DNA from: Nitrososphaerota archaeon
GTDB taxonomy: Archaea; Thermoproteota; Nitrososphaeria; Nitrososphaerales; Nitrososphaeraceae
Reading direction: 5' to 3'
NCBI GenBank assembly: GCA_005877075.1
Contig: VBPX01000057.1
Span: 1-40,022 of the forward strand
DNA: 40,022 nucleotides
The notes below the pieces were generated by a model. That model was given only the letters and a program-made list of their open reading frames with translations. It made no database searches and was not told the DNA's origin. The translations under genes were made by a program, and so were the position numbers. The first letter of the stretch is position 1. Every line of letters begins with the position of its first letter. Positions 7,637-23,776 of this stretch are shown in pieces.

Positions 7637-8947
7637 TTGTTGCAAGCCTTGGTTAGTATCTTAATCGCATCCGCACTGATTTCATTTTTTATCCTCGCAT
7701 CTATAATACCTCATCTATTTGTTAATGCTCAACAAAAGTTTGCAGAAACCGAGTTTCAGGAAGAAGGAAAACCAAAAATTGTTGATTCAAAGCTGAACAT
7801 TAAGACAATTGCAGAGGGATTAACAACTCCTACAACTATGGCTTTTGTAGGACAAAATGACATCTTGGTACTCGAAAAAGATACCGGTATGATTAAAAGA
7901 ATAGTCAATGGCAAGGTACTTCCAAAACCTGTTCTTGATGTAAATGTGGCTAATTCCATTGAAAGATGCATGTGTGGAATAGCCGTATCAAAACATGGTT
8001 CAACTACATTTGTATTTGTTTACTATACTGAAATCAATGGAAAAGATGGTGAGGATAAATCCGGAAAACAACCCATAGGAAATAGAGTCTACAGGTATGA
8101 ATTATCTGGCGACTCTTTAATTAATCCATTACTTTTGATGGATCTACCTGCTAATCCTGGACCACGACATAATGGAGGTAACATTATGATCGGACCTGAC
8201 AATAATCTTTACGTTGGCATAGGCGATGTAGATGGTTCTTTTAAGGTGGTGTCAAGTACAGAGACCAAGACTCAAAATTACAGGAATGGCATTGATCCGG
8301 ATGGAAGAGCAGGGATATTGAGGATTACCCAAGATGGTCAACCCACCGACAGACATGGCATTCTCGGTGATTCTATTCCATTGCGTTTGTACTATGCCTA
8401 TGGGATTCGCAATACGTTTGGTATGGACTTCGATCCTGTGTCAGGTAATCTATGGGACACAGAAAATGGTCCCGGAAATGGAGATGAAATAAACTTGGTT
8501 GAACCTGGATTCAATAGCGGATGGCAACAAGTTCAGGGCATGGCATCATTGGAGAAAACTTTCAGCGAATCTGACTTGGAAGACTTTGATGGAAAAGGTC
8601 ACTATAGTGATCCTGAATTAGTCTGGGTGAACACGGCTGGACCTACGGCCTTGAAATTTTTCAATTCTGCTAAACTTGGTACAAATTACGAAAACGATAT
8701 GTTTGTAGGAGACGTTCATAATGGAAGAATTTATCATTTTGATCTTACTCAAGATAGAAAGGATATTATTCTTCCAACAGAGTTATCATCTAGAGTAATA
8801 GAAAAACCATCATCACCAGGAGTAAATAATATTGTATTTGGTGAGGGCTTTGGAGGCATTACTGATTTAGAAGTTGGTCCTGATGGATATTTGTATGTAG
8901 TCTCAATCGGATTGGGCAGTATATATCAGATCAGCTTGGCACCTTGA
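7637..8947 (+). CDS. Secreted PQQ-type sugar dehydrogenase-like propeller protein
   Basis: A 436-residue exported protein of the soluble glucose/sorbosone dehydrogenase family, a six-bladed beta-propeller that oxidises sugars with PQQ in characterised members. Family segments are visible: GPRHNGGNIMIGPDNNLYVG (the RHNGG/GPDG region), YGIRNTFGMDFDPVSGNLW, and ENGPGNGDEINLVEPGFNSG. The N-terminus is a hydrophobic signal sequence. No ATG exists in frame; an in-frame stop at 7634 forces a TTG start at 7637 or 7640. The substrate is unknown, and the protein may use another cofactor or act as a lactonase-like enzyme. It stands alone and is convergent with the ferritin-like gene. Confidence 0.82.
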   Translation: MLQALVSILIASALISFFILASIIPHLFVNAQQKFAETEFQEEGKPKIVDSKLNIKTIAEGLTTPTTMAFVGQNDILVLEKDTGMIKRIVNGKVLPKPVLDVNVANSIERCMCGIAVSKHGSTTFVFVYYTEINGKDGEDKSGKQPIGNRVYRYELSGDSLINPLLLMDLPANPGPRHNGGNIMIGPDNNLYVGIGDVDGSFKVVSSTETKTQNYRNGIDPDGRAGILRITQDGQPTDRHGILGDSIPLRLYYAYGIRNTFGMDFDPVSGNLWDTENGPGNGDEINLVEPGFNSGWQQVQGMASLEKTFSESDLEDFDGKGHYSDPELVWVNTAGPTALKFFNSAKLGTNYENDMFVGDVHNGRIYHFDLTQDRKDIILPTELSSRVIEKPSSPGVNNIVFGEGFGGITDLEVGPDGYLYVVSIGLGSIYQISLAP

Positions 8948-15214: not shown

Positions 15215-16354
15215 CTATTGATTTTCATATGATTGGCATGTTTTTTTTGCTCTAAAGTGAACATTACCACTGTCAGAAACATAGATATTTCCAGAAGAAT
15301 CAATTGCAATGTCATGTGGAATCAGGAATTGATCATCTCGACATCCAAGTGAGCCCCACTTTGTAATAAAATTACCCTGACTGTCAAATTTCTGGATTCG
15401 AACATTCCTTGTATCTACGACATACACATTGCCTGACTTATCAGTCACAATCCCATGATCTTCTATAAAGTGGCCGTTACCATACCCAAAAGCTCCCCAC
15501 TTTGCAATAAAATTACCCTGACTGTCAAATTTTGCAACACGAGAATTGTTCCTGCCATCAGTAACATAAACAGAATCTTTTGAATCTATCGTTATATCAT
15601 GTAAATGAACAAATCGCATACCTAGCGAATAAGAATTCCATCTAGTTAAGAATTTGCCATCATTATTGAATTTTTGAACTTGGGGATTATCCTGGTCAGT
15701 TGTATAAACATTGTCCTTTGAATCAACAGCAATTCCCCATGGCTTAATAAATTGACCATCTGCTCTTCCCTTGGATCCCCACATTGTAATGAATTTACCA
15801 TCACTACTAAATTTCTGAATACGTTGGGCAGCGTAATCGGCAACAAAAACATCTCCTTTAGAATCTATGCCCATACTCTCAGGTTGTAAAAATTGTCCCG
15901 GACCTGTTCCTTTAGTTCCCCACATTGTAATGAATTTACCATTAATGTCGAATTTTTGTATGTTGCATTTTTCTGCATCACTCACATAGACATTACCGCT
16001 AGAGTCAACTGCAATTCCATGAGCATGCAAAAATTGTCCCGCACCTGTTCCTTTAGTACCCCAGGCAGAAATCAGAGTGCCATTACTATCAAATTTCTTA
16101 ACATAATGAAATCCAGGAAGGTCATTTGTAATGGGACCTGTTCCATTAGAATTATTGGTCAAGGCAACATTACTAACATATTGAGATTGATCTTTGTTAT
16201 CCTTGCAATTTAGACTCTTGGCATCTTCTGAACTTTGAGAATAAATTAAATGAAAATTTAAAAATGACAAGCTTGAAAATATAAGAGCTAACGATAGAAT
16301 AATAGAAAACAGCTTCAAATTAATATCCAATTGTCTTAATCTAAAAATTTTCAT
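15215..16354 (-). CDS. Secreted NHL-repeat beta-propeller protein
   Basis: A 379-residue exported protein. The signal peptide covers about residues 1-40, and the mature part holds six NHL repeats of about 47 residues. Each repeat has the shape FDSNGxFITxWGTKGTGxGQF followed by xxPxGIAVDSSGNVYVSD and xNxRIQKF, giving a six-bladed propeller. NHL propellers bind proteins or small ligands and some are enzymes; the sequence does not say which. Lone cysteines near the mature start and in SLGCRDDQF may pair. Overlapping inverted repeats lie 20-42 bases before the start. A second propeller in the region is fused to CopC/CopD at 19477. Confidence 0.85.
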   Translation of the reverse strand: MKIFRLRQLDINLKLFSIILSLALIFSSLSFLNFHLIYSQSSEDAKSLNCKDNKDQSQYVSNVALTNNSNGTGPITNDLPGFHYVKKFDSNGTLISAWGTKGTGAGQFLHAHGIAVDSSGNVYVSDAEKCNIQKFDINGKFITMWGTKGTGPGQFLQPESMGIDSKGDVFVADYAAQRIQKFSSDGKFITMWGSKGRADGQFIKPWGIAVDSKDNVYTTDQDNPQVQKFNNDGKFLTRWNSYSLGMRFVHLHDITIDSKDSVYVTDGRNNSRVAKFDSQGNFIAKWGAFGYGNGHFIEDHGIVTDKSGNVYVVDTRNVRIQKFDSQGNFITKWGSLGCRDDQFLIPHDIAIDSSGNIYVSDSGNVHFRAKKTCQSYENQ

Positions 16355-16485: not shown

Positions 16486-17382
16486 CTATCCTTTTGCATC
16501 TGTCACGTGGGTTTCGTTCTTTGACGAATCATGGGATGGTTCTCCTCCATGAACCTCTCCTTCTCCATGGTGATCTCCCTCTTCTTGAACCAAGCCTAGC
16601 TTGAAAATGTCATTAAGTAAGGGTGTAATCTTTTCATCTACTATTTTGTCAATTTCATCAAACGGGCTTTTATTATCTATCTTTCCTTTTAATGAACTTA
16701 ATGAATCTGCTAAATCAGTTGAATTAGCATTTGAATTTGGTTTAATTACATTATAGATGTCTATTGCTAGCAACACAGCTGCCTGCGAACTCTGATAATC
16801 AGCTTCGTCTACTATATTAGTAGTTTCATTTTTGTCTTTTTCTGTCGAATTTGAGATGGAGGTATTATTTTCATCCTGACTATCCATACCAAGGGAACTA
16901 TTATAGTGTTCCAGACCTTCACTTACCAGATCATTTAGTACCAGGGCTTTGACTGTTACATTATTTAGTTGTTCTTTGTCTATCCTAGCACTCAAAACTT
17001 CAGACAATACATCACTGATATTGCTAACTTTGTCTTTCACTTCTGATTGTGAGGGTGATCCAGATTCAAAAGTTTTAATAAAATCTGTCAAGGTGTCATT
17101 AAGTTCCGTTGCAAGCCGAGGGTTTCTTTCAGTAATTTCTTTGGTATCATTTGTGGTTATATGTTCGGTCAAGTGTTCCGCATGCTCCTTTGCAACGGTA
17201 GCGTTAGACGATAGCTGTTTTTGTGCTAATTGATATTCTATTTTCATCATTTCAACTTTGGTCAAAAAAGAAGCACTCTCATCACCTGAAAAAGTGTGAC
17301 CAAAAACGAAGTTGTTTAGATTCGAACCAAATGCAAGTAATAATACGATTCCTGGTAACGAAAAATTTAGTACTCTATTCAT
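16486..17382 (-). CDS. Secreted helical protein with histidine-rich tail
   Basis: A 298-residue exported protein. The signal peptide ends NNFVFG and the predicted mature chain starts with His-Thr-Phe. The body is acidic, mostly alpha-helical, rich in Asn/Ser/Thr with many N-glycosylation-like sequons, and the C-terminus is metal-binding in look: EEGDHHGEGEVHGGEPSHD. The N-terminal histidine plus the histidine tail suggest copper or other metal binding outside the cell. No enzyme motif is visible and I do not recognise a family. It has its own promoter-like AT-rich region at about 17385-17420. Neighbours include the NHL protein and the CopC-related genes. Confidence 0.7.
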   Translation of the reverse strand: MNRVLNFSLPGIVLLLAFGSNLNNFVFGHTFSGDESASFLTKVEMMKIEYQLAQKQLSSNATVAKEHAEHLTEHITTNDTKEITERNPRLATELNDTLTDFIKTFESGSPSQSEVKDKVSNISDVLSEVLSARIDKEQLNNVTVKALVLNDLVSEGLEHYNSSLGMDSQDENNTSISNSTEKDKNETTNIVDEADYQSSQAAVLLAIDIYNVIKPNSNANSTDLADSLSSLKGKIDNKSPFDEIDKIVDEKITPLLNDIFKLGLVQEEGDHHGEGEVHGGEPSHDSSKNETHVTDAKG

Positions 17383-17550
17383 CCAATAATTTTATAATTC
17401 ATGATAATAATAGTATTATGGTACATCAATCGAATCCAGATATCTACTTTAGCAGGTCTGTAAAGCATCATGAATCTGAACTCATCTATTCAATACTCGA
17501 TGTTTTGCTATAAAGTATAATTTTAACCAGATTATTTATTTCTGGAGTAT

Positions 17551-17793: not shown

Positions 17794-18371
17794 TCAGATC
17801 TTGTTTTTTCGTCTTAGATACACTACAATGCAAGCTATTACAGCTAATGCAGGCATCGCATAATATATTATAAGCTCATCAGTAGGTATTATCTGATTTG
17901 GGTTTGTGGCTGATAGATCAAAATCAACAGAAATTGGAGTTTGAGAATATGTTGGATCACCATTTATTTTGATTAATAGTGATACCTGATAATCTCCAAT
18001 TTCTTTAAATGTATATGGAAAGGTAATATCACTGAATTCATAAAACTTAAGCGGAAAATTTTGGACGATGGATCCATTTATTTTATTTTTATAATAAGTG
18101 AAGCAAAAATGTTATTGACATTATGATTATTCTTATCAAGAATACTAAAATTCAGTAAAGTTGAATTGTCACCAGCAAGAGGAAGAGCTGGATATGGCGC
18201 AAAAACTAATTGATAATTTCCAATATTCTTTGTTGCTCCAAAAAAGTGAGCGAAAATAAACTGTGGAGATTCATATTCATCAAAAAATACAATAGAAAAC
18301 AAAATTAAAAGAAAAACTATTCTGCAGTAGACTATTTTTTGGAAAGATATCAAAAACAAGGTAATGTGCAA
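17794..18371 (-). pseudogene. Frameshifted Ig-like membrane-anchored protein (CopC/YtkA-like)
   Basis: Two frames together encode one protein of about 192 residues. The first part (18371 down to about 18080) has a signal sequence ending QFIFA, a mature start His-Phe-Phe, and IGNYQLVFAPYPALPLAG, an Ig-like beginning. It stops at TAA 18078. Adding one A to the five-T run on the plus strand (18086-18090) joins it to the second part. This reads KNKINGSIVQNFPLKFYEFS, continues the Ig-like fold through IGDYQVSLLIKINGDPTYSQ, and ends with a membrane helix and the basic tail YLRRKNKI, with a stop at 17794. The order matches the intact gene at 14546. Whether the gene is dead, misread or uses slippage is open. 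Confidence 0.7.
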
Positions 18372-18575: not shown

Positions 18576-18599
18576 TTTGGTACAATATTATGTACCAAA
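18576..18599. promoter_or_regulatory. Perfect 9-base inverted repeat
   Basis: TTTGGTACA (18576-18584) and TGTACCAAA (18591-18599) are exact reverse complements with a six-base spacer ATATTA. It lies in the 264-base gap between the gene at 18636, whose stop is 37 bases away, and the frameshifted gene starting at 18371. It could be an operator for the latter or a processed hairpin downstream of the former; no T-run follows on the relevant strand, so a simple terminator is less likely. Confidence 0.5.
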
Positions 18600-18635: not shown

Positions 18636-19358
18636 CTATACGCCTTCCAGCATTCCTTTCTTGAACCGTAGTATGTTAAATAAATAGGCTGCCAAAACAA
18701 TTCCCGCAATACTTATTCCAACTGCAGTTAACAATATTAAATAAGAACTATTCAAATTTCCTTGTAACCCACTAACGGATTTTTGAATTTCAGTAATTTC
18801 TGTCTGTGACATATTCAAATCATTTCTATTATTTTGAATATCGTTTGATAACTTGCTTATCGCATCCTGGACGTTTTCGTTCATGTTATTTGAATTAGCG
18901 GTATCAACAGTTTTGTCGGGAAAGGAAAGTGTGCCCTTTGATTCTACATCTTCGATCTTAAATTCGCCATCAACTTTTTGTCCCTTTACGTCACCTTGGA
19001 GTAATACAATATATGGCCCTATTCTAGTTGGAATTATCTTACCCTCATATCCACCATCCGTTGTCGGTGAAGGTTCAAAATCTAATTGTTTTGTTATTGT
19101 TCCGTATTTCACAGACAAAGAAAGATTCGCTAGTGCGTTAAGAACCGGTGTTTGGTTATTGCTACTTCCTTTACTTACCTGTAGAGTAATACTATTTAAA
19201 TCAGAAACAAGTGGAGGTTCAGATAACCACCCAACTTCAATAGTGGTATTGCCAAAAGTTTTACTAGTATGTCCAAAGGAAACATTGAGGTAACTTGCAA
19301 AAACTAAGAATGATATAAAAAAGAATCCGACACCAACAACAACTTTCGTCTTTTCCAT
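18636..19358 (-). CDS. Membrane-anchored extracytoplasmic protein with N-terminal His and coiled coil
   Basis: A 240-residue protein: signal peptide ending NVSFG, mature start His-Thr-Ser, a beta-rich domain with TIEVGWLSEPPLVSDLNSIT and GGYEGKIIPTRIGPYIVLLQG (about 35-135), a coiled-coil stretch (about 160-205), and a C-terminal membrane helix with a basic end. The WxxEPPLVxxxNxI pattern occurs in extracytoplasmic Ig-like domains found next to copper proteins in archaea and actinobacteria, as far as I know. It is transcribed divergently from the CopC/CopD fusion through a 118-base shared promoter region, which suggests a joint role. A TATA-like CATTATATCC at 19384-19393 fits a near-leaderless start. 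Confidence 0.75.
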   Translation of the reverse strand: MEKTKVVVGVGFFFISFLVFASYLNVSFGHTSKTFGNTTIEVGWLSEPPLVSDLNSITLQVSKGSSNNQTPVLNALANLSLSVKYGTITKQLDFEPSPTTDGGYEGKIIPTRIGPYIVLLQGDVKGQKVDGEFKIEDVESKGTLSFPDKTVDTANSNNMNENVQDAISKLSNDIQNNRNDLNMSQTEITEIQKSVSGLQGNLNSSYLILLTAVGISIAGIVLAAYLFNILRFKKGMLEGV

Positions 19359-19476
19359 ATAGGCTAAATTAGATCCTTATACACATTATATCCTTTGTCC
19401 TCTTATTTCGATTGTTGTACTAGAAAAAAAAGCAATAGTAAAATAATCAAATCAATATAGATTATTTTGAGAAGTA
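19359..19476. promoter_or_regulatory. Shared divergent promoter region
   Basis: This 118-base region separates the start codons of the coiled-coil anchored protein (minus) and the CopC-CopD fusion (plus). TATA-like boxes face each way: around 19384-19393 for the minus gene and around 19453-19465 (AATCAATATAGAT) for the plus gene. The arrangement allows one regulator to control both. I see no long inverted repeat in it. Confidence 0.5.
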
Positions 19477-22400
19477 TTGATTCTTAAATTTAGTTTCTAT
19501 TATTTGGGATCTAATAGAAATTTACTTTTCTTTTCAATAACATGTTTGATGTTGGTATTAGGTTTTGGCTCGATACAGACCTCATTTGGACATGCATTTG
19601 TAATCAACAGTACTCCTGCTCAGTCAGCGGCTCTACCATCTTCTCCACAACAGGTAAATGTATTATTTAGTGAGCCAGTTGATTTACGCTACAGTCATTT
19701 GAAGGTCCTAGATTCAAATGGGAAGCAAGTTGATGATAAGGATGTTCATTATCTAAACAACGATGAATCCTCATTGACTGTTTCTGTACCATTATTAAAA
19801 GATGGAATTTATACAGTATCAACAAATGTTCTATCTCAAACTGATGGTCATGTAACAGATAATGCCTTTGTATTTGCTGTTGGACAAGCGATAATACCTT
19901 CAAATGTAGCAAGTATTGCAACATCATCAAAACTATATCTACCGGAAGCATTAGCTAGGTTCCCTACTCTTTTAGCACAAGTAATGATAGTAGGAGCCGC
20001 ATTTGGAACTTTTTGGATGTGGGGGCCACTATCGAAAATTGCTTTTCTTACTGAATCCATTTCTCAAGTTAGGAGCAAGGTAAACAAAAGACTTGCAGTT
20101 TATTATGTAATTGCGTCAATAATATTGGTAGCCTCAAATTTTGCTATACTTTTTTTTCAGGCAATAGCAATTAACGGGAACATAATTGATGTACTTGGAA
20201 CAAAATTTGGTACTATAGTAATCGAACGATCAATCATATCATTCATATTTCTTGGCCTGTCAATATTTGTATTAAGACAGTATAGGAAAAAACAATCGTA
20301 CACATTTTCTAGAATGGAGAGCGTAGGTTTTTTAATAATAGGAATGCTTTTACTTGTTACAACAAGCTTGATTGGACACGGTGCATCTAATAAACAATTA
20401 GTTCCAATAATTATTGATTTCATACATAATTTAGTAGCTTCTCTTTGGATTGGTGGTACCTTTTATCTTGCTTTTGTCCTAATTCCAAAATTAAAAGAAT
20501 CTCCAATAAATTGGCATTACAAATTAGCAACACTTTCAGTATGGATACCAAGATACAGTACATTTGCAGTAACAGCCCTAGGAATAATAATGGTTACAGG
20601 ACCATTTTTACTATACATACTTGAAAATAATTTGAATTTGGTTATTGGTTCTCTATATGGTACCTTTTTAATCGCCAAGCTTACGATTGCGGGAATAATG
20701 GTTATTGTGGGAGGGTATAGCAATGTGTTTATTCATAAACAGGTGGTCGCTTCTCTGAGGATAGGGCAAGTTATAAAAAGCAAATCGCAAGACTCCAAAA
20801 TTGCAAAGGAAGAATCAGAAAATGTAGGAAATGCAGGATCGATAATTTCTAAATTTGGAAGGGCACTTTTAATTGAAGCTTTCCTTGGAATTGCATTGCT
20901 AGTTAGCGTAGGTTTGTTGGTAAATACTGGGGTTCCAGCAAGCGAAATTCAAAATCAGGCGCAAACAGTAGGGGCGCAAACAGTAGGTCAAGTAAAAATC
21001 CAAAATCAAAATTTTGAAACAACTAGATTTCTAGATAATGATACCAAAGTTGAATTGTCAATATTACCCTTTGAAGTAGGAAATAATAATTTTAAAGTCT
21101 CATTTTCGGACATGAATGATGAACCTATTGATATAAGCTCGGCTGAAATAAAATACACACAAACTGAAAAATCGATTGGACCAATTACTGCAGAGCTAGA
21201 AAAACAGTCAAGAGGAATATACACTGTCAATGCATCGTTCGGAATACCGGGACTTTGGAATATGGAAGTACAAGCTGTCCCAGTAAAACAGAATATGTCA
21301 GGAATTGATGCCTCATTTGATAACTTGGTTGTAAAGCCAAACTTTGATCAGCTTAGATTCAATGTTACTAAATATCCTCTATCGAATACCACTATACAAC
21401 CACTATACCCAATTTATGATAAAAGTAGAAATTACATCTGGTTTGGAGACACTATAATTGGCAGTGGTCGGCTTTTTGCATTTGATATAGGTAAAGAAAA
21501 ATATATTGAACACAAAATTAATGGAACAAATATTATTACCTTAATGGCTCTGGATTCAAAAAATAATTTGTGGTATGTAGATCCCCTTACTAAAGTAATA
21601 GGATTTTATGATCCTGATAACAATACTAGTAAATTATACAATTTTCCAGGTGATGTTACTCCATCAGGTATTACAATAGATTCAAATGATAGTGTATGGA
21701 TTACTTCACCAATCACAGGCGAGGTATTAAGATTTGATACTAATACAGGCAACAATAGCTTAAAACTACATCCTAAAGATAAAGACGCGCGTCCATTTGC
21801 AATAGTGTCAGATCCTGTCAACAATTTAATATGGACAAGTGATGAAGCAGGTAAATTAGTAAAAATCGATCCTAACACAAACTATTCTATGACTGAATAT
21901 TCGCCAAAGGGTAACGATTCATTGTCAAGTCCTACTGCATTATTAATTGATAAAGTCAGCGGTCAAATTTATATTTCACAGCATGATGGTTACAAAATAA
22001 CTGTTTTTGACCCTCTGACAAAGATATTTACTGACTTACCAGTAATAAATAAGGCAGGGCTTCCATTTGGAATGGCGTTTGACAAATATAGCAATTTGTG
22101 GGTAGCCGAACATACAATAAACAAGATTGCAGTAATGGACCCTCAAACCTCAAAGATTAGAGAAGTAACTGTTCCAACACCTTCACCTTTTATCCAATGG
22201 ATTACTTCTGATTCAAACGGAAACATATGGTTCGCCGAACAACGTGGCAATTCAATTGGAATGATAGAACCAAGCGTAGGATCTATTGCTCAACAAAAAA
22301 TTCAAGAAATCAATAAGAACAGTGTTCCAAACCCTAACTCCATTTTTGGATTAAATCTCAGTTACCAGAATTTCATTGCACCTGCTATATTAGTTGGGAT

Positions 22401-22482
22401 TGTGGTTACTGCTTTTATGTATGCTAGAAGCATGACAGATCTTAAATTAAACATTTCAAAGGTAATGCAGAACCATAAATAA
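19477..22482 (+). CDS. CopC-CopD-YtkA-like-beta-propeller fusion protein
   Basis: A 1001-residue membrane protein with four parts. Residues 1-38 are a signal sequence ending QTSFG. The CopC domain (39 to about 137) begins with mature histidine 39 and carries TDGH (Asp123, His125), matching the His1/Asp/His copper(II) brace known for CopC. About 160-488 is the CopD multi-helix domain (eight helices, including LIGHGAS and IHNLVASLWIGGTFYLAF). About 505-620 is a YtkA-like Ig domain, as in Bacillus YcnJ. About 638-938 is a Vgb-type propeller with repeats such as GITIDSNDSVWITSP, followed by a last membrane helix (about 965-985). The likely role is copper binding and import, or sensing. No in-frame ATG precedes the signal; TTG 19477 is the longest start. 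The propeller fusion is unusual. Confidence 0.87.
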   Translation: MILKFSFYYLGSNRNLLFFSITCLMLVLGFGSIQTSFGHAFVINSTPAQSAALPSSPQQVNVLFSEPVDLRYSHLKVLDSNGKQVDDKDVHYLNNDESSLTVSVPLLKDGIYTVSTNVLSQTDGHVTDNAFVFAVGQAIIPSNVASIATSSKLYLPEALARFPTLLAQVMIVGAAFGTFWMWGPLSKIAFLTESISQVRSKVNKRLAVYYVIASIILVASNFAILFFQAIAINGNIIDVLGTKFGTIVIERSIISFIFLGLSIFVLRQYRKKQSYTFSRMESVGFLIIGMLLLVTTSLIGHGASNKQLVPIIIDFIHNLVASLWIGGTFYLAFVLIPKLKESPINWHYKLATLSVWIPRYSTFAVTALGIIMVTGPFLLYILENNLNLVIGSLYGTFLIAKLTIAGIMVIVGGYSNVFIHKQVVASLRIGQVIKSKSQDSKIAKEESENVGNAGSIISKFGRALLIEAFLGIALLVSVGLLVNTGVPASEIQNQAQTVGAQTVGQVKIQNQNFETTRFLDNDTKVELSILPFEVGNNNFKVSFSDMNDEPIDISSAEIKYTQTEKSIGPITAELEKQSRGIYTVNASFGIPGLWNMEVQAVPVKQNMSGIDASFDNLVVKPNFDQLRFNVTKYPLSNTTIQPLYPIYDKSRNYIWFGDTIIGSGRLFAFDIGKEKYIEHKINGTNIITLMALDSKNNLWYVDPLTKVIGFYDPDNNTSKLYNFPGDVTPSGITIDSNDSVWITSPITGEVLRFDTNTGNNSLKLHPKDKDARPFAIVSDPVNNLIWTSDEAGKLVKIDPNTNYSMTEYSPKGNDSLSSPTALLIDKVSGQIYISQHDGYKITVFDPLTKIFTDLPVINKAGLPFGMAFDKYSNLWVAEHTINKIAVMDPQTSKIREVTVPTPSPFIQWITSDSNGNIWFAEQRGNSIGMIEPSVGSIAQQKIQEINKNSVPNPNSIFGLNLSYQNFIAPAILVGIVVTAFMYARSMTDLKLNISKVMQNHK

Positions 22483-22724: not shown

Positions 22725-22757
22725 TTCGATATATGTACCAATTAATTTAAATTCGAA
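22725..22757 (+). promoter_or_regulatory. Promoter of the membrane protein/regulator pair
   Basis: A TATA-like TAATTTAAATTC at about 22742-22753 lies about 29 bases before the GTG start at 22776. It is bracketed by TTCGA (22725-22729) and TCGAA (22753-22757). The same five-base pair brackets the promoter at 7603-7630, where the arms are closer together. Confidence 0.4.
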
Positions 22758-22775: not shown

Positions 22776-23171
22776 GTGCAATTGCAAAGAAGATCTGGGG
22801 TATTGGATAATAAACTTAAATTTTTCGCGCTTACGACGGTTATAGTTTCTTCCTTGATAATACCATTAGTAGTACCTCATATTTTGCACCAATCAATGAT
22901 ATACCATATTGCTATTCATATAGTCAGCTTAGATATTTCGATTTTCCTTGGATTGGTGTCAATATTTGCGTTTGTAAAAAATAGCAATAAAAGAATGTTT
23001 TTTATGGCACTAGGGTTTGTAACACTTGCAATTGTAGAGGTAATTATGTTATTATCATCAACAGGTAACTTAAATAACGTTGTTTTACCTGCAGTTAATA
23101 TTGAGTTACCACATATAGTACTACTAGTAATGATAACGCTGTTTGGTTTGGGGATTCTTAAGGCAAGGTGA
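22776..23171 (+). CDS. Four-helix membrane protein coupled to a regulator
   Basis: A 131-residue integral membrane protein with four predicted helices: FFALTTVIVSSLIIPLVVPH, IAIHIVSLDISIFLGLVSIF, MFFMALGFVTLAIVEVIMLL and HIVLLVMITLFGLGIL. Conserved-looking histidines (HILHQ, YHIAIH, LPH) lie near helix ends and could bind metal or haem. The start is GTG 22776, placed well for the TATA box, although TTG codons at 22782 and 22803 are possible. Its TGA overlaps the GTG of the next gene as GTGA, so the two are translated together. Such pairs suggest the membrane protein senses or sequesters the regulator; this is inference. Not a family I can name. Confidence 0.7.
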   Translation: MQLQRRSGVLDNKLKFFALTTVIVSSLIIPLVVPHILHQSMIYHIAIHIVSLDISIFLGLVSIFAFVKNSNKRMFFMALGFVTLAIVEVIMLLSSTGNLNNVVLPAVNIELPHIVLLVMITLFGLGILKAR

Positions 23172-23776
23172 GCTATAAGTTGGATTCAATCAATATGAAT
23201 TCATCGAATATGTATTTGGTTAAGACACTGCCTAAATTACAGCAGGAGTTACTATTATGTATCGATGAAAATCCTGGAATCAGGTATAGAGAACTATTGA
23301 GATTGCTTAATTTTTCTAATGGAGTTTTGTCATTTCATGTTAATAGACTAGAAAAATTGGATCTTCTTAACGTAGAGAGACGAACCAGAATAACGAGGTT
23401 TTTTCCAAGAAATATTTCAAATGACATAATGGGGATTATAGGAAATTTGAGAAATCAAACTTCATATGAAATTATTAAATTACTTTATGATAGAGGACCA
23501 ATCACTCAACAGGAAATAATAAAATACACAAGAAAGGCGGCGTCTACAGTTTCATGGAATATGAAAAAACTTTTAGAGGATAATATAGTCTACCTAAAAA
23601 ATAGAAATAATATTTATGAGGATGATCACTATGCTGCTGACGGCAGGTTTCAATATAAAAGAGTAAACCTATATGACCTGTTAAACAGAAATTTAGTAAA
23701 TGATCTTATTTATATGCCCAATAAATACATTGATGGTACAATAAATAATTATTCAGAAATTATGGATTCGCTATAA
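23168..23776 (+). CDS. Double winged-helix transcriptional regulator
   Basis: A 202-residue protein with two winged helix-turn-helix domains. The first covers about residues 10-80 (LQQELLLCIDENPGIRYREL, then LSFHVNRLEKLDLLNVERR with a basic wing). The second covers about 90-150 (IIKLLYDRGPITQQEIIKYT, then TVSWNMKKLLEDNIVYLKNR). This tandem layout is common among archaeal MarR/ArsR-like regulators. It starts at GTG 23168 within the stop of the membrane protein gene, so the two should be made in fixed proportion. Location after the CopC/CopD locus suggests it may regulate copper or envelope genes, but nothing in the sequence proves the signal. Confidence 0.8.
   Translation: MSYKLDSINMNSSNMYLVKTLPKLQQELLLCIDENPGIRYRELLRLLNFSNGVLSFHVNRLEKLDLLNVERRTRITRFFPRNISNDIMGIIGNLRNQTSYEIIKLLYDRGPITQQEIIKYTRKAASTVSWNMKKLLEDNIVYLKNRNNIYEDDHYAADGRFQYKRVNLYDLLNRNLVNDLIYMPNKYIDGTINNYSEIMDSL

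Follow-up and report, generated by a model that had tools for sequence, protein, structure and literature searches.

Domain architecture of the fusion protein

The analysed DNA, a stretch of 40,022 nucleotides referred to as the window, belongs to an AmoA-positive genome from the family of Nitrososphaera-like genomes. Its forward strand carries an open reading frame (19477-22482), which starts with TTG, is open throughout and codes for a protein of 1001 residues combining the CopC, CopD and YtkA-like domains of a YcnJ-type copper importer with a β-propeller. The hydrophobic N-terminus (residues 1-38; 19477-19590), followed by SFG/H, is predicted to be a signal peptide, the removal of which would leave His39 as the first residue of the mature protein. 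The CopC domain (residues 39-135; 19591-19881) is identified by Pfam (CopC, 1.8e-17) and by a profile match to YcnJ CopC (9c14), with which it aligns from residue 1. The CopD domain (residues 155-484; 19939-20928) and the YtkA-like β-domain (residues 513-602; 21013-21282) score under the Pfam cut-offs, the former at 3.5e-6 (residues 357-481; 27.8 versus 32.1 bits) and the latter just under it at 4.5e-5 (residues 521-598; 24.5 versus 25.9 bits). The NCBIfam profile copper_CopD likewise scores under its cut-off (4e-17), and the predicted fold supports both domains. They are followed by the propeller (residues 626-934; 21352-22278), recognised as Vgb_lyase by Pfam (3.1e-22, best stretch 829-940) and supported by AlphaFold2 and Foldseek, and by a ninth membrane helix (residues 963-1000; 22363-22476), whose hydrophobic stretch is kept across the alignment.

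The AlphaFold2 model of the fusion, calculated from 74 sequences, has a mean pLDDT of 86 and a pTM of 0.59, the latter implying that the placement of the domains relative to each other is uncertain. It comprises a CopC sandwich, eight transmembrane helices (155-482), a second β-domain (513-602), a propeller of seven four-stranded blades (642-934), whose ring is closed by the strand 626-634, and the last helix (963-1000). On the basis of the signal peptide and the eight transmembrane helices, the YtkA-like domain and the propeller are predicted to be extracytoplasmic, the propeller being tethered to the membrane at both ends. The entire architecture forms a single open frame in 73 orthologues aligned with the window protein, down to about 32% identity, which argues against a chance fusion. 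A preliminary description, made from the sequence of the window, had proposed the four-part architecture, an additional membrane helix after the propeller and a propeller position outside the membrane; all three are borne out, the last as a predicted topology.

Copper-site residues and relation to YcnJ

His39, Asp123 and His125, which make up the CopC His brace (N-terminal His, Asp, His) at the Cu(II) site, and His301, Asp314 and His317 of CopD are each present in all 74 aligned sequences. These invariant residues make the fusion a YcnJ-type copper importer, import itself being assigned by analogy. YcnJ of Bacillus subtilis supports growth under copper starvation (PMC13344008), for which His24 and His110 of its CopC His brace and His295 of CopD are needed (PMC12362106, PMC13344008); His301 and His317 of the fusion are likened to YcnJ His295 by residue kind only. 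The likeness to YcnJ claimed in the preliminary description is thus confirmed by the CopC Cu(II)-site residues and by the order of CopC, CopD and YtkA in one chain, with CopC and YtkA on the predicted outside. It extends to the locus, as ycnJ is also accompanied by the gene of a membrane-anchored partner with N-terminal His, Glu and Trp (YcnI) and by a nearby regulator gene (YcnK) and is induced when copper is short (PMC12362106, PMC13344008, PMC8424229). In contrast to the fusion, YcnJ possesses neither a propeller nor a ninth helix.

The divergent partner and the copper cassette

Directly upstream, on the reverse strand, an exported protein of 240 residues (18636-19358) is encoded, for which AlphaFold2 predicts a β-sandwich, a coiled coil and a C-terminal transmembrane helix (203-238) as membrane anchor. 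Of 100 loci, 91 contain a member of its family close to the fusion, 81 of them in an upstream and divergent position, several of the nine loci without it lying at contig ends and a few genomes occurring twice among the 100 because two collections were used (e.g. L034/L148, L044/L121, L052/L129). The preliminary description had linked this gene product to the fusion, and the frequent neighbourhood agrees with this link. The sequence distances of partner and fusion are also correlated (r = 0.97). Within the family (84 members) His30, the first residue past the signal peptide, is invariant (84/84), and Glu47 (99%) and Trp44 (96%) are nearly so. The partner shows the residue types of the monohistidine brace of YcnI, a protein which has the N-terminal His, a Glu and a Trp as copper ligands, is held in the membrane by its C-terminal helix as well, and takes part in Cu(II) exchange with YcnJ (PMC8424229, PMC12362106).

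Nevertheless, the partner is not a YcnI by sequence: DUF1775, the Pfam family of YcnI, does not match the window protein at E-values up to 1 and does not appear in the list of the 25 families with the most matches to 54 proteins of the partner family, no YcnI was matched among the PDB sequences, and the β-domain is covered by no Pfam family. Structurally, the model resembles filamin-like sandwiches and the copper-resistance protein CrdA of Helicobacter pylori (TM 0.69). Judged from its sequence features, the partner is likely to be YcnI-like in function without being a YcnI.

Further genes complete the cassette. On the same strand as the partner, an exported, mainly helical protein of 298 residues with a conserved mature N-terminal His (His29, 97%) is encoded at 16486-17382; its assignment to the fusion in the preliminary description is supported by the presence of its family in 31 of the 100 loci. 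Between these two genes, another exported protein with an N-terminal His is encoded (17794-18371, reverse strand), its frame being shifted near 18081, either by an assembly error or by real decay. The listed open reading frame has only 97 residues, and continuing in the alternative frame recovers a protein ending in a transmembrane segment; homologues near the fusion span 167-237 residues, relatives about 186. Four adjacent genes here encode proteins with a His directly behind the signal peptide, compared to 2 of 65 proteins with an N-terminal hydrophobic stretch in a sample of the genome, as judged by a crude signal-peptide rule. Downstream of the fusion follows a small His-rich membrane protein (22776-23171, forward strand), whose family is present in 43 loci, has no Pfam family and keeps Pro34, His35, His44, His48 and His113 in more than 90% of its 44 members. 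Its gene overlaps by 4 bases with that of a winged-helix (MarR/ArsR-like) regulator (23168-23776, forward strand; Pfam HTH_24, 5.4e-16; family in 45 loci), a double winged-helix protein which, unlike the regulator of the B. subtilis system, is not identified as YcnK-type.

The copper-limitation motif

The motif TTCSGSMTTTGWACYANT was reported in front of genes of Nitrososphaera viennensis induced by copper limitation (Reyes et al., PMC7785015). With at most 3 mismatches, it is found no more than 150 bases away from 44% of the 94 fusion genes considered, compared to 0.6% of shuffled sequences, and its position 35-70 bases before the gene places the fusion in the copper-limitation regulon of ammonia-oxidizing archaea (AOA). 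The published motif precedes the cassette in soil and marine AOA. A relaxed form, TTC[GT]N5TG[AT]AC[CT]A, stands in front of 57/94 fusions and 40/94 partners and in front of 28/42 genes in the 22776 and 24/34 in the 16486 family, whereas among the remaining genes of these loci it precedes 23 of 949; as this form was picked after hits had been seen and the loci are related, the percentages are descriptive. It is as frequent in the marine (21/32) as in the soil lineages (27/42). It precedes none of 46 regulator genes, which are located inside the operon behind the 22776-type gene.

In the window the motif has diverged, differing from the published consensus at 3 to 6 positions; the strict motif yields 3-mismatch matches at chance level only, and a lineage-specific form, TTCGATNNWTGTACYA, was found instead. 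It is located in the divergent promoter that serves both the fusion and its partner (TTCGATTGTTGTACTA, 19407-19422, forward strand), in front of the 22776 gene (TTCGATATATGTACCA, 22725-22740, forward strand) and in front of the 16486 gene (TTCGATTGATGTACCA, 17419-17434, reverse strand), and nowhere else in 1.97 Mb; since the pattern was drawn from these three sites, its uniqueness is informative and the match itself is not. An inverted repeat, TTGGTAC-N8-GTACCAA, between the partner and the frameshifted gene (18577-18598) shares the motif core GTACCAA.

Distribution among ammonia-oxidizing archaea

A match to the fusion is present in 185 of 250 genomes of the class, and full-length matches (about residues 20-990) occur in all AmoA-bearing families seen among them. 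A scan of named genomes revealed 80 loci, every one of them thaumarchaeal, with Nitrosotalea, Nitrososphaera, Nitrosopumilus and Nitrosarchaeum among them. Full-length orthologues are thus near universal in the sampled AOA except for a Nitrosocosmicus-like genus, which excludes a rare or lineage-specific fusion. No fusion was found in 250 genomes of other classes, where only loose propellers occur, or on plasmids, by which bacteria were covered and where matches span CopC/CopD or the propeller and never reach 80%.

In the Nitrosocosmicus-like genus, mostly split genes for CopC-YtkA and CopD are present, with the same copper domains as in the window but unfused, with a gene of the 18636 family between or beside them and without a fused propeller in the locus. 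This organization fits the report of separate copC and copD genes in N. franklandianus (PMC12448741). One genome of this genus (G223; 3% contamination) carries a fusion of 1147 residues (L058, 580-4020, reverse strand), which represents either contamination or a real exception.

The same architecture (992 residues) in the same gene company is found in an AmoA-negative genome of 96% completeness (G165). Its cassette (L205, 7363-12106) consists of genes of the 22776 and 23168 types followed by an 18636-type gene that overlaps the fusion on the same strand, and contains copper-type motifs at 7813 and 8413.

The probable orthologue of N. viennensis

A "CopC/D fusion conserved across the phylum" was reported to be induced by copper limitation in N. 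viennensis, where two motif copies precede copC/D_b (NVIE_014310) and one, on the opposite strand, the gene of an induced exported protein (NVIE_014340); N. maritimus was reported to raise CopD rather than CopC/D (PMC7785015). An N. viennensis-like genome (G132) has the same neighbours and a matching motif layout, with two copies before a full-length match of 988 residues including the propeller and one opposite-strand copy before the partner gene. From this agreement it is very probable that copC/D_b and the "exported protein of unknown function", both induced, correspond to the propeller fusion and to its partner, respectively; the 22776 product is probably the "putative cation channel" NVIE_014290. 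G132 also contains a second CopC-CopD-YtkA gene without propeller, which follows the fusion (L033, 5933-7969, reverse strand; 679 residues), with its own 18636-family gene between the two. Since the partner family is kept beside this paralogue and with CopC/CopD in the propeller-less Nitrosocosmicus-like loci, the partner does not need the propeller.

Neither the CopC/D fusion nor its response to copper is new in itself. The published text on NVIE_014310 covers CopC and CopD only, and in the literature searched (mainly open-access papers) we found neither a mention of the propeller in papers on the CopC/D fusion, nor the near-universal partner with its His/Glu/Trp set, nor the motif for marine lineages and for an AmoA-negative relative, which constitute the new aspects of this work. 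The preliminary description had regarded the architecture as little described, which holds for the propeller; the domain search across relatives that it had suggested revealed a common architecture, published as "CopC/D fusion".

Fold and conserved residues of the propeller

In a Foldseek search against the PDB, the propeller fits best onto the streptogramin B (virginiamycin B) lyases Vgb (2qc5, 2z2o; target TM-score 0.89, rmsd 2.2-2.4), which share the seven-bladed fold. The catalytic His residues of Vgb are not kept in the AOA propeller, which in addition is fused to a membrane copper transporter: the positions equivalent to the catalytic His228 and His270, at the starts of A strands, lack a His in 74/74 sequences and are aligned with Phe774 and Thr820. 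The H270A variant of Vgb is inactive according to the title of entry 2z2p. The invariant Gln907 is the sole conserved residue comparable to them, and the NCBIfam profiles VgbA and VgbB score 51.5 and 53.1 bits, far from their cut-off of 600. Judged from these residues, a Vgb-type lyase activity is unlikely.

His836, His879, Gln907 and Asp702 are invariant (74/74), and Asp658 (73/74) and Glu921 (68/74) nearly so. His836 and His879 each come right after the end of a B strand, in blades 5 and 6, respectively, and Gln907 lies before the A strand of blade 7; according to the strand order of the AlphaFold2 model, these residues and Asp702 would share one propeller face. Averaged over all its loops, the B-C/D-A face shows no higher conservation than the other side of the propeller (Mann-Whitney p = 0.59), which limits the argument for a pocket to the few invariant residues, and a His or Glu at this position is also found in Vgb-like propellers. 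As a whole, the propeller is conserved like the copper domains (mean pairwise distance 0.56 and 0.54), and its divergence parallels that of CopC+CopD (r = 0.97).

Functional implications

We consider it reasonably probable that the fusion is a copper-limitation-induced YcnJ-type copper-acquisition protein extended by an outer propeller module that binds a metal, a ligand or a partner. The sequences themselves show the domains, the invariant residues, the pairing of the genes and the motif, and published expression in N. viennensis shows the induction; the transport steps are modelled on YcnJ by analogy, and the role of the propeller is deduced throughout. In this scenario, copper limitation would switch on the cassette through the conserved motif. 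Cu(II) might be captured outside by CopC via the N-terminal His39, Asp123 and His125, CopC possibly being loaded from the 18636 protein, which with its N-terminal His, Glu and Trp would be a likely YcnI-like copper donor or partner. The copper would then be handed to the outer side of CopD (His301, Asp314 and His317) and transferred across the membrane. The YtkA-like domain might act as a second outer β-domain, linked to the delivery to copper enzymes by analogy with YcnJ. The doubly tethered propeller would supply or regulate CopC through a candidate pocket on its B-C/D-A loop face, formed by His836, His879 and Gln907 with Asp658, Asp702 and Glu921, in which a metal, a ligand with bound copper or a partner carrying copper would bind. 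Not all copper uptake depends on the propeller, given the propeller-less Nitrosocosmicus-like genus and the paralogue of the N. viennensis-like genome; the response reported for N. maritimus, with CopD raised instead of CopC/D, also counts against this scenario.

How the propeller would contribute can be envisaged in several ways, among them the docking surface, ligand sensor or enzyme domain put forward in the preliminary description. As a dedicated second site for copper or a copper chelate at His836, His879 and Gln907, it would take copper from natural ligands or from the partner with the N-terminal His and pass it to CopC; this assignment is tentative and rather unlikely, but if true it would reveal an archaeal copper-scavenging receptor inside the importer of almost all AOA, which already existed in an AmoA-negative relative. 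NHL/Vgb-type propellers are common docking domains, and the propeller is possibly, although on balance not probably, a platform that binds no metal and holds a copper donor such as the 18636 protein, a multicopper oxidase or cytochrome oxidase/AMO subunits near CopC and YtkA. The nearly constant pairing with the partner gene and the correlated sequence distances agree with such docking; however, shared ancestry also yields correlated distances, the partner family persists where the propeller is missing, and the invariant His, Gln and Asp residues are more in keeping with a ligand site than with a loose docking surface. A purely structural spacer free of a specific ligand might explain the loss of the propeller in one genus and one paralogue and the lack of an overall face bias, but it appears improbable in view of several invariant polar residues and a conservation matching that of the copper domains.

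An enzymatic function, by which a Vgb-like lyase, lactonase or hydrolase would free copper from organic ligands, is suggested by the closest fold and by conserved residues near the equivalent of the Vgb active-site face; the missing catalytic His residues and the low VgbA/VgbB scores render it quite improbable. That the entire fusion serves copper export or resistance instead of import, as the frequent naming of CopC/CopD as copper-resistance proteins might imply, is highly unlikely, because the N. viennensis CopC/D genes are induced under copper limitation (PMC7785015), the limitation motif is conserved and YcnJ sustains copper-starved growth (PMC13344008).

Under the favoured reading as a copper-acquisition protein, the cassette becomes relevant for ammonia oxidation in AOA, a process that requires copper enzymes and for which copper is limiting in nature. 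A near-universal cassette emerges with a proposed division of labour between an importer with propeller, a partner with N-terminal His, a small membrane protein and a regulator. The motif, for which only terrestrial conservation had previously been reported, reaches marine lineages, and the picture of a "CopC/D fusion" is corrected by a propeller that accounts for about one third of the protein.

Foldseek also matched the propeller to an extracytoplasmic copper protein, a Cu/Zn superoxide dismutase with propeller from Deinococcus radiodurans (9m58/9m59; E 1e-12), which is an enzyme and not a transporter; the match is long and loose (rmsd 19), and homology is not claimed. Adjoining the copper cluster of the window, a secreted stand-alone NHL propeller protein of 379 residues with six NHL stretches is encoded at 15215-16354 on the reverse strand and is kept in the closest relatives (L103, L106 and L144).
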